DNA of 64,000 nucleotides from Pseudonocardia sp. TRM90224 (GTDB taxonomy: Bacteria > Actinomycetota > Actinomycetes > Mycobacteriales > Pseudonocardiaceae). The DNA lies in assembly GCF_021245725.1 (NCBI RefSeq), contig NZ_JAJGSX010000029.1, positions 1 through 64,000 on the forward strand. Reading direction: 5' to 3'. The stretch's first letter is position 1; the number at the start of each line of letters is the position of its first letter. The notes under the pieces were generated by a model that saw only the letters and a program-made list of their open reading frames with translations, had not been told where the DNA came from and searched no databases. The position numbers and the translations under genes are program-made. Shown in pieces: positions 20,681 to 63,974 of the stretch.

Positions 20681-20739
20681 GAGGGCAGGAAAGCCACTTT
20701 CCTGCCCTCACAGGGCCTGAAAGTGGCTTTCCTGCCCTC
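20681..20739. repeat. Dispersed palindrome family B, copy 1
   Basis: A 59-bp element of two nested palindromes: GGCAGGAAAGCCACTTTCC and the mirrored GGAAAGTGGCTTTCCTGCC around CCTCACAGGG. It is identical, in reverse orientation, to the element at 53944-54002. It is preceded by ACGCGAG, which is also shared with other copies. Confidence 0.92.
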
Positions 20740-20843: not shown

Positions 20844-20868
20844 TGCCGGGAAAGCCACGTTCCCGGCA
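20844..20868. repeat. Half-size relative of family B
   Basis: TGCCGGGAAAGCCACGTTCC and its completion form one hairpin with GCCGGGAA / TTCCCGGC arms around AGCCACG. It shares the GGAAAGCCAC core with family B but is only one palindrome long, so it may be a precursor or decayed form. Confidence 0.6.
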
Positions 20869-40877: not shown

Positions 40878-40888
40878 AGCCCGCACGC

Positions 40889-40947
40889 GAGGGCAGGAAA
40901 GCCACTTTCCGGCCCTCACAGGGCAGGAAAGTGGCTTTCCTGCCCTC
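40889..40947. repeat. Dispersed palindrome family B, copy 2
   Basis: A 59-bp element between two convergent stop codons (DUF58 and SpoIIM). The same layout as copy 1, with a few substitutions (CCGGCCC for CCTGCCC in the first half). Flanked by GCACGC, which is shared with copy 3 in reverse orientation. Confidence 0.92.
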
Positions 40948-40957
40948 CCCCGGGCGG

Positions 40958-49906: not shown

Positions 49907-50030
49907 TGCTCTCTCCTCGCGAGCGTGCGGGACGACCCACCGGAACGCGGGCAGCACGAGGAGACCGAGTGGTCCACTCGGCCCTCCCACGAGGCCGACG
50001 GATCTGCGCGCACCGGAAGGTGCACGCACC

Positions 50031-50225
50031 GGCGGCAGGTATTCGGACTCGCGGGCACCGCCGGACCTTCGTCCGGCGACCTACCGGCCGTCGCTTCCCA
50101 GGTCCTGCGACCCAGTGCTCGTTGACGGCTGTCGTTCCCGCTCACCGCTGCGGGGCAGTCCCGGACTCTCACCGGGTTCCCTCTTGCCTCGGATCTGCAC
50201 CACCATCTCGTGCATAGCCGAACCA
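50031..50225 (-). promoter_or_regulatory. Cobalamin riboswitch of metE
   Basis: Read on the minus strand, this leader has the cobalamin riboswitch landmarks in order: GAGGGAACCCGGTGAGAGTC, CGGGACTGCCCCGCAGCGGT, the CACTGGG segment, GGGAAGCGACGGCCGGTAGG, and the B12 box AGTCCGAATACCTGCC. A downstream hairpin CCGAGTGGTCCACTCGG (49965-49981) lies before the metE start and could be part of the expression platform. Binding of adenosyl- or methylcobalamin would switch metE off when the B12-dependent synthase can work. Confidence 0.95.
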
Positions 50226-50238
50226 CCAGCAGACCGGA

Positions 50239-50814
50239 CTATAGATGAGTTGCAGCCCGATCCGCGGAATCGTGATCAAGGAGGTCGGCGAATGCCGCCG
50301 CGGCGGCGTCGACCCGTGCCGGGCGCGAGGTGACGAGACTGTCGAGGAGCAGACCGTCGACGGTGTCGAGGATGAGGTCGGCGAGGGGCTCCACGCGTGG
50401 CTGGGGGATGGCGAGTTCGGCCAGTCCGGTGCGCAGCATGATCAGCCACGGTTCGCGGGATTGTTCATGGGCGGAGCGCCAGCCGTCCGACTCGTGCACC
50501 GACAGGACGCACATCTGCAGGTACAGACGCATCGCGCCGTGCGCGACGGGGTCGTTCACGACCCGCCAGGCGTAGCGCACGAGATCACCGACGGTCCGCA
50601 CGGGCGGATCTGCCTCGTCGATGGACTCGGCCAGACGGCGGTTGGCCAGGGCGACCACCTCGGCGATCAACGTCTCCTTGTTGGCGAAGTGGTAGATCAG
50701 CATGCGGTCGCTGGTGCCCAGCGCCGCAGCGAGCGGGCGCAGCGACAGCCCGATCAGCCCGTGCTCGAGCACGTAGGCCAGTGCACCTTCGGTGAGCGCG
50801 GCGCGGCGGTCCAC
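50239..50814 (-). CDS. TetR-family repressor
   Basis: This 191-residue TetR regulator has the HTH LSLRPLAAALGTSDRMLIYH near residues 24-43 and FANKETLIAEVVALANRRL after it. Its ligand-binding domain is typical in length. It is divergent from the small membrane protein at 50881. Two copies of a palindrome lie between the two starts, the expected operator. It probably controls that neighbour and itself. Confidence 0.92.
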   Translation of the reverse strand: MDRRAALTEGALAYVLEHGLIGLSLRPLAAALGTSDRMLIYHFANKETLIAEVVALANRRLAESIDEADPPVRTVGDLVRYAWRVVNDPVAHGAMRLYLQMCVLSVHESDGWRSAHEQSREPWLIMLRTGLAELAIPQPRVEPLADLILDTVDGLLLDSLVTSRPARVDAAAAAFADLLDHDSADRAATHL

Positions 50815-53943: not shown

Positions 53944-54002
53944 GAGGGCAGGAAAGCCACTTTCAGGCCCTGTGAGGGCAGGAAAGTGGCTTTCCTGCCC
54001 TC
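53944..54002. repeat. Dispersed palindrome family B, copy 3
   Basis: A 59-bp element identical to copy 1 (20681-20739) when read on the opposite strand. It lies between two convergent stops, the PheRS-like gene and the hypothetical at 54027. Downstream GCGTGCGG is the mirror of the CCGCACGC upstream of copy 2. Confidence 0.93.
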
Positions 54003-59889: not shown

Positions 59890-61044
59890 GTGAGTTCGAC
59901 GGGTGGCCGCCACTTCCTGCAGATCCCCGGCCCGACCAACGTCCCCGACCGGGTGCTGCGCGCGATGCTCGCGCCGACGATCGACCACCGCGGGCCTGAT
60001 TTCGCCGAGCTGACCCGCGCCGTCCTGCCCGCGCTCGCACCCGTCTTCGGCACGTCCGGCCCCGTGGTGATCTACCCGTCGTCCGGCACGGGCGCGTGGG
60101 AGGCAGCGCTGGTCAACACGCTGAGCCCGGGCGACCGCGTGCTGATCGGCGAGACCGGGCAGTTCTCGACGCTGTGGGCGGAGCTGGCTGCGCGCCTCGG
60201 GCTGGAGGTCGAGGTGATCCCCGGCGACTGGCGCCACGGCGTCGACCCCGCCGCCGTCGAAGAGCGGCTCGCAGCCGACACGGCGCACACGATCGCGGCG
60301 GTCTGCGTCGTCCACAACGAGACCTCGACGGGTGTGACCAGCCGCGTTCCGGAGGTGCGGGCGGCGATCGATGCGGCCGGGCACCCCGCGCTGCTGCTCG
60401 TCGACACGATCTCGTCGCTCGGCTCGATCGACTACCGGCACGACGAGTGGGGTGTCGACGTCACCGTCGCCGGCTCGCAGAAGGGTCTGATGCTGCCGCC
60501 GGGGCTGGGCTTCAACGCCGTCAGCGAGAAGGCGCTCGCCCGGTCCGCGGGCCTCCCGCGCTCCTACTGGGACTGGGCGCCGATCATCGAGGCGAACTCG
60601 CGCGGCTTCTTCCCGTACACCCCGGCCACCAACATGCTCTACGGGCTGAAGGAGGCGTGCGCGATGCTCGCCGAGGAGGGCCTCCCGGCCGTCTTCGAGC
60701 GCCACCAGCGGCACGCGGCCGCCACCCGCGCCGCCGTGCGGGCGTGGGGGCTCGAGGTGTGGTGCGCCGACGAGCGCGAGCACTCCGGCGCGCTCACCGC
60801 CGTGCTCCTTCCCGAGGGCCACGACGCCGATGCCATGCGCCGGATCATCCTGGAGCGGTTCGACATGTCGCTCGGTGCCGGGCTCGGTCGGCTCGCCGGC
60901 ACGGTGTTCCGGATCGGGCACCTCGGCCACTTCAACGACCTGACGCTCGCCGGCACGCTGGCGGGCGTGCAGATGGGCCTGCAGCTGGCCGGAGTGCCGA
61001 TCAAACCCGGCGGCGTGGAGGCGGCGCTGGAGCTGCTGCGTTGA
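59890..61044 (+). CDS. Class V aminotransferase (serine/alanine-glyoxylate type)
   Basis: This 384-residue PLP enzyme has GPTNVPDRVLRAMLAPTIDH, HRGPDFAELTRAVLPALAP, the PSSGTGAWEAALVNTLSPGD phosphate region, and the Lys motif VAGSQKGLMLPPGLGFNAV. It probably transfers an amino group from serine or alanine to glyoxylate or a related 2-oxoacid. GTG 59890 follows GAGGAGGAAAC. It overlaps the dehydrogenase start by four bases. Confidence 0.93.
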   Translation: MSSTGGRHFLQIPGPTNVPDRVLRAMLAPTIDHRGPDFAELTRAVLPALAPVFGTSGPVVIYPSSGTGAWEAALVNTLSPGDRVLIGETGQFSTLWAELAARLGLEVEVIPGDWRHGVDPAAVEERLAADTAHTIAAVCVVHNETSTGVTSRVPEVRAAIDAAGHPALLLVDTISSLGSIDYRHDEWGVDVTVAGSQKGLMLPPGLGFNAVSEKALARSAGLPRSYWDWAPIIEANSRGFFPYTPATNMLYGLKEACAMLAEEGLPAVFERHQRHAAATRAAVRAWGLEVWCADEREHSGALTAVLLPEGHDADAMRRIILERFDMSLGAGLGRLAGTVFRIGHLGHFNDLTLAGTLAGVQMGLQLAGVPIKPGGVEAALELLR

Positions 61045-63974
61045 ACGACCTCGCACAGGCACTGGCCCGCGAGATCGAGGGCGAGGTCGCGTTCGACGAC
61101 TACACCCGCCACCTGTACTCGCGCGACGCGAGCATGTACACGATCCGGCCGCAGGGTGTGGTCGCGCCACGGCACGCGGGTGATGTCGTCGCGGCCGTGC
61201 GGCTGGCCGCGGAGCACGACGTCGCCGTGCTGCCCCGCGGCGCGGCGACCAGCCTCGCCGGGCAGACCGTCGGCGACGCGCTGGTGCTCGACTTCTCGCG
61301 GCACATGTCCACGATCGTCGAGCTCGACGCGGAGGCGCGCACCGCGCGCGTGCAGCCGGGGGTGGTGCAGGACCAGCTGAACCGGGCCGCGGCGGCGCAC
61401 GGGCTGATGTTCGGTCCCGACACGTCGACGTCGAACCGCGCGACGCTCGGCGGCATGATCGGCAACAACTCCGCGGGCAGCGGCTCCGTGCGGTACGGGA
61501 TGACGATCGACCACGTGCAAGGGCTCGACGTCGTGCTCTCCGACGCGTCGACGGCCCGGTTCGCGCCGGTCGACGACGCCGAACGAACCCGCCGGGCAGC
61601 GGCGTCGACGCTGGAGGGCGCGCTCTACCGCGAGCTGCCCGCTCTCGTCGACGCGCAGCGCGACGCGATCGACACCGGGTTCCCGCAGTTCTGGCGCCGC
61701 GCGGGCGGCTACCGGCTCGACCGGCTCGTCCGGCCCGCAGACGGGTTCGACCTGGCCAAGTTCGTCGTCGGTTCGGAGGGGACGCTCGTCGTGCTCACCG
61801 AGGCGACGGTCGGGCTCGTCGAGAAGCCGCGCCACACCATGATCGCGGTCGGGCACTTCCGCTCGACGCAGGCCGCGATCGCCGCCACCGAGGACGCGTT
61901 GAGCTGCGACCCCGCGGCCGTCGAGCTGATGGACCGCACGATCCTCGACCTGTCCCGGCAGAAGATCGAGTACGCCGCGCTGGGCTCGATACTCGTCGAC
62001 GACCCCGACGCGCTGCTCTTCGTCTCCTTCACCGGGCCCGACCCGGCGGAGCTGGCGGCCTCACTGGACCGGTTGACCGCGCTGTGGGAGCGCCACCACC
62101 ACGGCTACCACACGCTGCGCGCCGACACGCCCGCCCAGCAGGGTGCGCTGCTGAAGGTGCGCAAGTCGGGGCTCGGGCTGCTGATGGCGGCGAGCGAGGG
62201 CACCAACCGGCCGCTCGCCTTCATCGAGGACACCGCGGTGGAGCCGGCCAGGCTGGCCGAGTACACGCAGCGGTTCGCGAAGGTGCTCGACCGGCACGGG
62301 ATGCGCGCCGGGTTCTACGGGCACTGCTCGGTGGGCTGCCTGCACATCCGCCCGTTCGTCGACCTCGCCAAACCCGACGAGGTGGTGAAGATGCGTGCGG
62401 TCGCGGAGGAGATCCGCGATCTGGTGGCCGAGTTCGGGGGCGCCAACTCGTCCGAGCACGGCGACGGGCTGGCCCGCAGCGAGTTCAACCGGCAGCTGTT
62501 CGGCGACGCGCTGTACGAGGCGATGCGGCAGGTCAAGGCCATCTTCGACCCGGACAACCGGATGAACCCCGGCAAGATCGTCGACTCGCCGGCGATGACC
62601 GAGCACCTGCGCGACGCCGCGCTGCCGCCCGCGCCGCCGCTGCGGACCGCGCTCACGTTCAGCGTGGTCGGAGGCGGGAGCGGGGGCGGGATGCGCGATG
62701 CCGCCGACCGCTGCATGAACATCGGCGCCTGCCGCAAGAGCGACACCGGCGTCATGTGCCCCTCGTACATGGCGACCCGGCGCGAGGAGGACTCGACCCG
62801 CGGGCGGGCGAACGCGCTGGTCAAGGCGCTGTCGGAGCCGGACCCGCGGGCCGCGCTCGGCGACGAGCGGCTGCACGAGGTGCTCGACCTGTGCCTGATG
62901 TGCAAGGCGTGCAAGAGCGAGTGCCCGCTCGGCGTCGACATGGCGACGCTGAAGAGCGAGGCGCTGCACCAGAAGCACGCGACGCAGGGGACGCCGCTGC
63001 GGTCGCGGGTCTTCGGCAACATCCGGCGGCTGAACCGGCTCGGCTCGGCGACGGCACCGCTGTCGAACCTGGCCGGCAAGCTGCCGGGGATGCGGCGCCC
63101 GCTGGGCATCGCAGCGCAACGGCCCCTCCCCACGTTCACGCGCCGCACCCTCCCCCGCTGGTTCGCGCGCCGGCACGCCGCTGGGGGACGCCAGGAAAGC
63201 CACTTTCCTGGCACCACAGGACAGGAAAGTGGCTTTCCTGGCACCCTCCAGCCCCGCGGGCCGCTGACGTTCCTGGCCGACTCGTTCACCGCCTTCACCG
63301 AGCCCGGCGTCGGGATCGCGGCCGTCGAGCTCCTGGAGCGGGCGGGGTGGGACGTCCGGCTGGAGTCGGGCGGCTGTTGTGGACGGGCCGCGTTCTCCAA
63401 GGGCCTGCTCGACCAGGCGGCCCGGCAGGCGTCGGGGCTGGTGGACGCGCTCGCCAGGGCGGAGGGCCCGATCGTCGGCGTCGAACCGTCGTGCCTGCTG
63501 ACGCTCAAGGACGAGCACAGGGCGCTGCTCGGCGACGACCCTCGGGTGACCGACATCGGCCGGCGCGCGGTGCTCGTCGAGGACCTGCTGGTCGACGCGA
63601 TCGACAGCGGCGCGCTGGTGCCGAGCGCCGACGTGTGGCCGGCCGGGCAGCGGATCCTCTTCCACGGCCACTGCCACCAGAAGGCCGAGGTCGGGACGGC
63701 GGCATCGGTGGCGCTGCTGCGCCGGATCCCCGGCGCCGAGGTGGTCGAGCTGGACGCGGGGTGCTGCGGCATGGCCGGCTCGTTCGGCTTCGAGGCCGAG
63801 CACTACGACGTCTCGATGACGGTCGGCGAGGATCGGCTCTTCCCCGCCGTCCGCGCCGAACCGGCAGGCACCGTCGTCGCGGCGACCGGTGTCTCGTGCC
63901 GCCAGCAGATCGCGCACGGGACGCAGCGGAAAGCGTTGCACCCCGTCGAGCTGCTGCGGGCGGTGCTTGTCTGA
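61041..63974 (+). CDS. FAD/Fe-S 2-hydroxyacid dehydrogenase (YdiJ/GlcD-GlpC type)
   Basis: This 977-residue fused enzyme starts with TTG overlapping the aminotransferase stop. An FAD-binding PCMH domain (PRGAATSLAGQTVGDALVLD, near residue 70) is followed by the FAD-linked oxidase C-domain and a Fe-S domain with MNIGACRKSDTGVMCPSY (about 557) and CLMCKACKSECPLGVD (about 617). Two CCG segments (ESGGCCGRAAFSK, about 777, and DAGCCGMAGSFGFEAEHYD, about 905) complete it. It oxidises a D-2-hydroxyacid to a 2-oxoacid, which the aminotransferase could use. An in-frame family B palindrome adds about 19 residues at 716-735. Confidence 0.93.
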   Translation: MNDLAQALAREIEGEVAFDDYTRHLYSRDASMYTIRPQGVVAPRHAGDVVAAVRLAAEHDVAVLPRGAATSLAGQTVGDALVLDFSRHMSTIVELDAEARTARVQPGVVQDQLNRAAAAHGLMFGPDTSTSNRATLGGMIGNNSAGSGSVRYGMTIDHVQGLDVVLSDASTARFAPVDDAERTRRAAASTLEGALYRELPALVDAQRDAIDTGFPQFWRRAGGYRLDRLVRPADGFDLAKFVVGSEGTLVVLTEATVGLVEKPRHTMIAVGHFRSTQAAIAATEDALSCDPAAVELMDRTILDLSRQKIEYAALGSILVDDPDALLFVSFTGPDPAELAASLDRLTALWERHHHGYHTLRADTPAQQGALLKVRKSGLGLLMAASEGTNRPLAFIEDTAVEPARLAEYTQRFAKVLDRHGMRAGFYGHCSVGCLHIRPFVDLAKPDEVVKMRAVAEEIRDLVAEFGGANSSEHGDGLARSEFNRQLFGDALYEAMRQVKAIFDPDNRMNPGKIVDSPAMTEHLRDAALPPAPPLRTALTFSVVGGGSGGGMRDAADRCMNIGACRKSDTGVMCPSYMATRREEDSTRGRANALVKALSEPDPRAALGDERLHEVLDLCLMCKACKSECPLGVDMATLKSEALHQKHATQGTPLRSRVFGNIRRLNRLGSATAPLSNLAGKLPGMRRPLGIAAQRPLPTFTRRTLPRWFARRHAAGGRQESHFPGTTGQESGFPGTLQPRGPLTFLADSFTAFTEPGVGIAAVELLERAGWDVRLESGGCCGRAAFSKGLLDQAARQASGLVDALARAEGPIVGVEPSCLLTLKDEHRALLGDDPRVTDIGRRAVLVEDLLVDAIDSGALVPSADVWPAGQRILFHGHCHQKAEVGTAASVALLRRIPGAEVVELDAGCCGMAGSFGFEAEHYDVSMTVGEDRLFPAVRAEPAGTVVAATGVSCRQQIAHGTQRKALHPVELLRAVLV
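63189..63246. repeat. Family B palindrome inside a coding sequence
   Basis: CCAGGAAAGCCACTTTCCTG, ACCACAG and CAGGAAAGTGGCTTTCCTG lie inside the dehydrogenase gene. They are read in frame as QESHFPGTTGQESGFPGTL without a stop. They sit between the Fe-S and CCG parts, in a linker. Similar to the intergenic copies but with flanks changed (GGCACC for GCCCTC). Confidence 0.85.

Follow-up and report, generated by a model that had tools for sequence, protein, structure and literature searches.

A dispersed palindromic repeat lies in frame in an interdomain linker of a conserved FAD/Fe-S oxidase gene of Pseudonocardia

Results

The oxidase gene and the element within it

The window, that is, the whole stretch of 64,000 nucleotides analysed here from Pseudonocardia sp. 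TRM90224 (genome G000 in what follows), carries near its right end a gene for a FAD/Fe-S oxidase in which two flavin-related Pfam matches are followed by an Fe-S domain and a CCG domain. The features to which the text refers are these:

59890..61044, + strand: aminotransferase class V gene, upstream of the oxidase gene and overlapping its start
61041..63974, + strand: FAD/Fe-S oxidase gene, 977 aa; its TTG start overlaps the stop codon of the upstream gene
aa 37-171 of the oxidase: FAD_binding_4 Pfam match
aa 262-513 of the oxidase: FAD-oxidase_C Pfam match
62703..62936, + strand: Fer4_8 (Fe-S) domain of the oxidase, aa 555-632, ahead of the insert
63189..63245, + strand: in-frame double-hairpin element (family 1) in the oxidase gene, ~57 nt, ends uncertain by a few bases
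63190..63212, unstranded: hairpin unit 1, GCCAGGAAAG-CCA-CTTTCCTGGC, arms 100% complementary
63222..63240, unstranded: hairpin unit 2, CAGGAAAG-TGG-CTTTCCTG, arms 100% complementary
63300..63509, + strand: CCG domain of the oxidase, aa 754-823, past the insert
20683..20737, unstranded: intergenic family-1 element, convergent genes on either side
40891..40945, unstranded: intergenic family-1 element, convergent genes on either side
53946..54000, unstranded: intergenic family-1 element, convergent genes on either side
20844..20868, unstranded: lone family-1 half-unit with the altered core GAAAGCCACGTTC

A first-pass annotation had placed a palindrome inside this gene, between the Fe-S and CCG domains and with no stop codon in frame, and had assigned three intergenic palindromes of the window to the same family. 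All of this is borne out. The element consists of two hairpins that lie 30 nt apart from start to start, and an outer pair of arms (63180-63210/63222-63252) is 90% complementary. It begins at about residue 717, between the Fer4_8 and CCG Pfam matches, and the frame of the gene runs through it as ...GGRQESHFPGTTGQESGFPGTLQ... without a stop, so that it encodes ~19 extra residues around QESHFPGTTGQESGFPGT. The three other members each lie between convergent genes according to our own gene calls. The family-1 core pattern, with up to two mismatches allowed, matches the window eight times, which corresponds to both halves of the four elements, while 100 dinucleotide shuffles of the window gave a mean of 0.01 core matches and never more than one. 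As RNA, the element in the oxidase gene is predicted to fold into a stem of -42.7 kcal/mol (z -8.6), so that an effect on translation is conceivable. The element belongs to no Rfam family, since a search of the window at the gathering score returned only a tRNA and a cobalamin riboswitch, the latter at 50017-50242 on the - strand.

The extra residues are an insertion

The linker between the two domains was read by tblastn in 103 of 105 orthologous loci, a set in which six genomes are counted twice. As the first-pass annotation had supposed, the ~19 residues have the distribution of an insertion: they are missing in most orthologues and, besides the window, were seen only in genomes G011, G034, and G049, all of them Pseudonocardia. 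No row from another genus among the 103 loci carries them, a match to the peptide pattern in a Streptomyces locus (L093, RERHV) being a chance one. Measured from RPLP to ADSF, the linker of the window oxidase is 52 aa long, against a median of 33 aa over 90 measured rows; among rows that have no recognised element and a measured linker, 70 of 92 fall between 29 and 35 aa, and the ten that exceed 35 aa hold other sequences, G012 with a repeat of its own among them. Insert-free rows separate the window lineage from G011, G034, and G049 on both of the trees described below. Since the G011 and G049 forms of the repeat recur in their own genomes and insert-free rows stand between the lineages, we conclude that the residues are an inserted genomic repeat. 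The nearest protein found, P0001 (94% identity), has a linker that is 10 residues shorter and holds a single QESHFP unit, as read from protein only, and the element-free site was seen only in orthologues at ~84% identity or less.

In a structure model built with 57 sequences (mean pLDDT 86.8), runs of at least three residues with pLDDT below 50 occur only at 716-734, which is the insert, and at 544-547, and the insert is thus the sole long segment of such low confidence. The oxidase alignment (57 rows) contains invariant columns, cysteines included. Identity to the orthologues of G008, G035, and G018 is 85, 85, and 83% past the insert compared with 85, 83, and 87% ahead of it, and most of the changes relative to these three are at third positions. 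The domain past the insert is conserved like the part ahead of it.

Family 1 across the genome and the order

The family-1 core, GAAAGYSRCTTTC, occurs at 977 sites in the 9.38-Mb genome of the window. At least one core site is present in 25 of the 62 genomes of the genus that were searched (its own included), where the three next-richest genomes have 96, 54, and 37, and in 51 of 397 genomes of a sample of the order. Hundreds of sites in the order sample were found only in the window genome and in six genomes of a second genus of Pseudonocardiaceae (g30, perhaps Amycolatopsis). These six hold 149 to 376 core sites, and many of the pairs among the sites listed are 30 nt apart.

A census of 2.03 Mb of the window genome, in which a simple codon-based finder called genes over 88% of the sequence, yielded 161 family-1 elements: 133 of two units, 26 of one unit, one of three, and one of four. 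The spacing is exactly 30 nt in 130 of the 133 two-unit elements, and the loops are ordered CCA then TGG in 118 of 128. A stretch of ~60 nt is strongly conserved, and a further ~15 nt to one side of it weakly so. With respect to genes, 150 elements are intergenic, a class in which the codon-based finder would also score any element that had broken a gene, seven partly overlap a gene call, and four lie inside genes, all in frame, compared with the 83% that random placement would put there. Of the 161 elements, 128 lie closest to the 3' end of a gene. Spacers between convergent genes hold 65 of 151 elements although they make up 200 of the 996 spacers of at least 60 nt, whereas spacers between divergent genes hold 17 of 151 and make up 279 of 996. 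Family-1 elements thus strongly avoid genes, and in-frame insertion is real but rare; extrapolated from four in 2.03 Mb, ~18 in-gene elements would be expected in the whole 9.38-Mb genome. Two-unit elements have on average 4.98 of six frames open compared with 3.49 after shuffling of their letters, and the 30-nt unit means that the gain or loss of one unit preserves the reading frame.

In a count without a control, 33 of the 128 two-unit elements have a TGCG-N2-5-CGCA pair in the 40 nt upstream and 17 have one in the 40 nt downstream; these pairs are perhaps a partner hairpin or a piece of a composite element.

Other in-gene elements

The three other in-gene elements lie, by Pfam, in genes for a nucleosidase-LytB fusion, a FAD_binding_3 monooxygenase, and a SNF2 helicase. 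It should be noted that four in-frame elements out of four are no test in themselves because the gene caller finds only elements that preserve the frame. The nucleosidase-LytB element is missing in all five orthologues read (16 loci were fetched, most of the others matching the LytB half only), the monooxygenase element in 16 of 16 orthologues, and the helicase element in six of six genomes. The peptide frame used is QESH in three of the in-gene elements and RKATF in one. Two further censuses, based on coding scores of the flanks (50 clusters; 117 of 121 elements assessed, the other four lying at edges), each flagged the oxidase element and one doubtful other (C1:554404, C1:213341). The second of these missed the C13 in-gene element, which the gene finder and the orthologues later supported, and hence the count of in-gene elements depends on the method.

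The linker of the monooxygenase holds a different palindrome in other species, namely the 40-nt GTGAGTGG palindrome (family 2, below), in G022 and G030, and a diverged form in G034. A second linker, in addition to that of the oxidase, thus holds both palindrome families in different species. At the site of the SNF2 helicase element, loci L335 and L336 (G022 and G034) have other extra sequence (HGESG). In P. xinjiangensis (G016, locus L339) a predicted membrane protein apparently contains a family-1 element, RKATFRPSPGRKVAFL, in frame and close to its N terminus.

Recurrence and turnover in the oxidase linker

The oxidase linker holds one family-1 variant in G011 and G034 and another in G049. 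The form in G049, TCAGCAAAGCCACTTTGCTGA, has seven exact copies in that genome, one in G011, and none in G000, and the G011 linker form is likewise repeated elsewhere in the genome of G011. The insert is missing in G004, while G022 has no element and retains a piece equal to the flank of the G011 element, which from its sequence is likely a scar. In P. acaciae (G046) the same linker holds the family-2 palindrome, and in G012 (locus L066) it holds, in frame, a third dispersed repeat resembling GCGAGTCGGCGTTTC, of which the G012 genome has 22 sites at no more than one mismatch, three of them exact. Family 2 was recorded as follows:

GTGAGTGG-N24-CCACTCAC, 11 distinct copies among the loci analysed, every one 40 nt long: family 2, six genomes of the genus
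L059 (4430), L067, L075, L084, L206-L214, L317, L331: family-2 loci

The inner stems of family 2 vary between copies yet still pair.

Among at least 120 proteins, read as protein only, 13 have two family-1 units in the linker, two have one unit, two have a possible scar, seven have the family-2 peptide, 95 have no recognised element, and one was left unread. Variants of the insert occur in the proteins of P. cypriaca and P. xinjiangensis, among others. A tree was made without the linker from 68 rows, comprising the first 62 proteins less P0012, P0023, P0050, and P0060, together with the window and nine others. On it, the five linker states require a minimum of 11 changes, a number that counts losses and scars as well; taken separately, family 1 with its scars needs five and family 2 needs four. 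These counts are blind to gain versus loss and come from a quick tree in which 19 of 65 inner forks are weak. Family 1 is carried apart by the window with P0001, by P0002, and by a clade of 19 rows in which three rows have no element and two have scars, and a careful tree of 27 rows also separates the window row from the G011 clade. G012, with the third repeat, is nested within a family-2 clade. In the clade of G011, G004, G022, G034, and G049 the insert is probably an old one passed on by descent, so that these species are not all independent events.

Candidate mobilisers, tags, and carriers

A RAYT transposase (PF01797) has no match in the window genome, the assembly of which is 96.7% complete, and matches occur in five of the 62 Pseudonocardia genomes. 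As the mobiliser of family 1 it was rejected, for the window genome has no match and none of the ten RAYT loci returned holds the element core. A MITE would share its terminal inverted repeats with a known transposase and be flanked by a target-site duplication; the transposase search covered PF01797, and the empty sites are too diverged for such a duplication to be read. The tags of known palindromic repeats are no feature of the family either: GTAG/CTAC lies within 12 nt of an element end in six of 161 cases compared with 6.7% of random places, so the GTAG superfamily tag is absent, and CGTC/GACG does so in 25 of 161 compared with 43%, so the tag of the CGTC, RPE-4, and RPE-6 repeats is absent as well. 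Flanking hairpins (stem of at least 6) were discarded as targets, being found at 17 and 11 of the 128 elements on the two sides compared with 10.7% of 709 random intergenic sites. Carriage by plasmids or phages was likewise set aside, since a single 76-base query (the intergenic element at 40880-40955) had no match at E 0.01 in either collection.

Discussion

Origin of the insert in the oxidase

The oxidase gene is conserved, its linker is tolerant, and within that linker lies, in frame, a dispersed palindromic repeat that most orthologues lack. We consider it very probable that this element landed in the linker in frame and lengthened it, and that the enzyme has stayed under selection. Specifically, we propose that the element would be one copy of a dispersed repeat of two hairpins 30 nt apart that moves as DNA, most copies of which would settle between genes and near 3' ends. 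The rare copies in genes would survive where they meet a flexible stretch, offer a stop-free frame, and add a net multiple of three nucleotides. In the oxidase, the connection from the Fe-S domain to the CCG domain would have gained ~19 seemingly unstructured residues, with selection on the enzyme unchanged, and this tolerant joint would take the same and unrelated palindromes in related species, some of which would lose one 10-codon unit or leave a scar. From these patterns we infer that the element moves as DNA, that the insert is translated, and that it is neutral; the element would have no genes of its own, and the added peptide is probably without a separate function.

Other readings of the same data differ in what they make of the recurrence at this one joint. 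The linker DNA could be a preferred target of the moving machinery, with the tolerance of the protein not the main cause. Three repeats unrelated in sequence within one short linker across species, the two families in the linker of another gene, and the TGCG-N2-5-CGCA pairs beside the two-unit elements would all suit such a hot spot; however, the empty sites share no common sequence by eye, flanking hairpins are about as common as in random intergenic DNA, and unrelated families would all have to require one target, and we regard this reading as rather unlikely. Somewhat less credit still can be given to a single ancient insertion in the ancestor of these Pseudonocardia, followed by many losses and by homogenisation to the form of each genome. 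That the family-1 rows share both linker and peptide frame is what such a history would leave, but the rows without an insert that separate the window lineage, P0002, and the large family-1 clade would have to have lost it (some of these forks being weak), the history fits poorly with a G049 form that is repeated in G049 and lacking in G000, and the sequences of families 2 and 3 are unrelated.

The strong predicted RNA stem, the position at a domain boundary, and the retention of one variant across several species of a clade raise the question of a selected role, in which the insert would be kept because its mRNA hairpin, or the peptide that it encodes, slows translation or sets the distance from the Fe-S domain to the CCG domain. 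We judge this to be quite improbable, as the insert is absent in G004, reduced to a putative scar in G022, one unit shorter in P0001, and replaced by other sequences in other species, and 95 of at least 120 proteins have no recognised element. That the high-copy repeat led to an error of assembly or sequencing here can be practically dismissed. In G016 the matches to the oxidase do end on two contigs at the start of the linker (residues 697 and 696), but like inserts occur in proteins from other assemblies, including P0001, and the reading frame is intact.

The insertion of a dispersed element into a tolerant linker, our preferred explanation, leads to a broader and tentative hypothesis, which we think could be right but would not yet rely on. 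Certain linkers of Pseudonocardia proteins may be long-term landing sites in which unrelated palindromes enter the reading frame without breaking it, change in steps of 30 nt (10 codons), and take each other's place, the elements having become compatible with coding in that they have few stops in any frame and a unit length divisible by three. DNA parasites would then shape such linkers more than point mutation does.

The essence of these observations is that a high-GC actinobacterium shows in-frame palindromic insertion by elements that lack the known tags, in a genome in which no RAYT was found, and that, from species to species, a single linker is seen with the element, with one unit lost, with a scar, or with a different repeat in its place. 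This series is a natural system for testing how elements move and how proteins take up new sequence. It also cautions that a variable linker in an actinobacterial protein can owe its sequence to mobile DNA rather than to adaptation.

Comparison with known palindromic elements

A close parallel to the in-gene copies is that raised by the first-pass annotation, the Rickettsia palindromic elements (RPEs). These are described as dispersed palindromic repeats of several families, many of which lie in genes without shifting the frame, the proteins of these genes being likely functional (PMC3733652, PMC10969869). Family 1 is likewise a dispersed palindrome with in-frame copies in genes, so that RPE-like behaviour does occur in a high-GC actinobacterium. 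All four in-gene elements agree with the pattern of in-frame copies in genes that still function, with selection past the insert tested for the oxidase only. The differences lie in size and placement. RPEs are ~150 bp long and almost half of them lie within genes, according to PMC10969869, whereas family 1 is ~60 nt long, is built of two 30-nt units, and has four of 161 copies in genes; the CGTC end tag reported in R. conorii RPEs is also no feature of it.

As a short palindrome of high copy number that is mainly extragenic and downstream of genes, family 1 has the attributes of REPs in the broad sense. The repeats of the GTAG and CGTC superfamilies are described in PMC3733652 as mostly intergenic, between convergent or same-direction genes, and often dimers. 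The same text reports that intragenic REP dimers or groups encode 20-30 aa and that recB carries distinct REPs at roughly the same position in two Xanthomonas species (PMC3733652). Family 1 shares the intergenic and convergent preference, the paired units, and the occurrence of some copies in genes, while it differs in having no GTAG tag and no RAYT in its genome. BIMEs are mosaics of REP units, with paired inverted palindromic units at fixed spacing. Family 1 resembles them in its paired inverted units, fixed spacing, and loop order, and differs from them in unit sequence and tag. BIMEs are named in PMC3733652. The main text of that paper makes no mention of actinobacteria, Pseudonocardia, Streptomyces, Mycobacterium, Amycolatopsis, or Frankia. 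A literature search at the level of titles and abstracts, with most subscription papers outside it, returned nothing on the family-1 repeat, its core letters included.

Palindromic insertions in frame are already known from Rickettsia, and intragenic REPs from several other bacteria. Within the reach of the literature search, the novelty lies in this family of elements, in the group of bacteria that hosts it, and in how deep a series a single linker displays.
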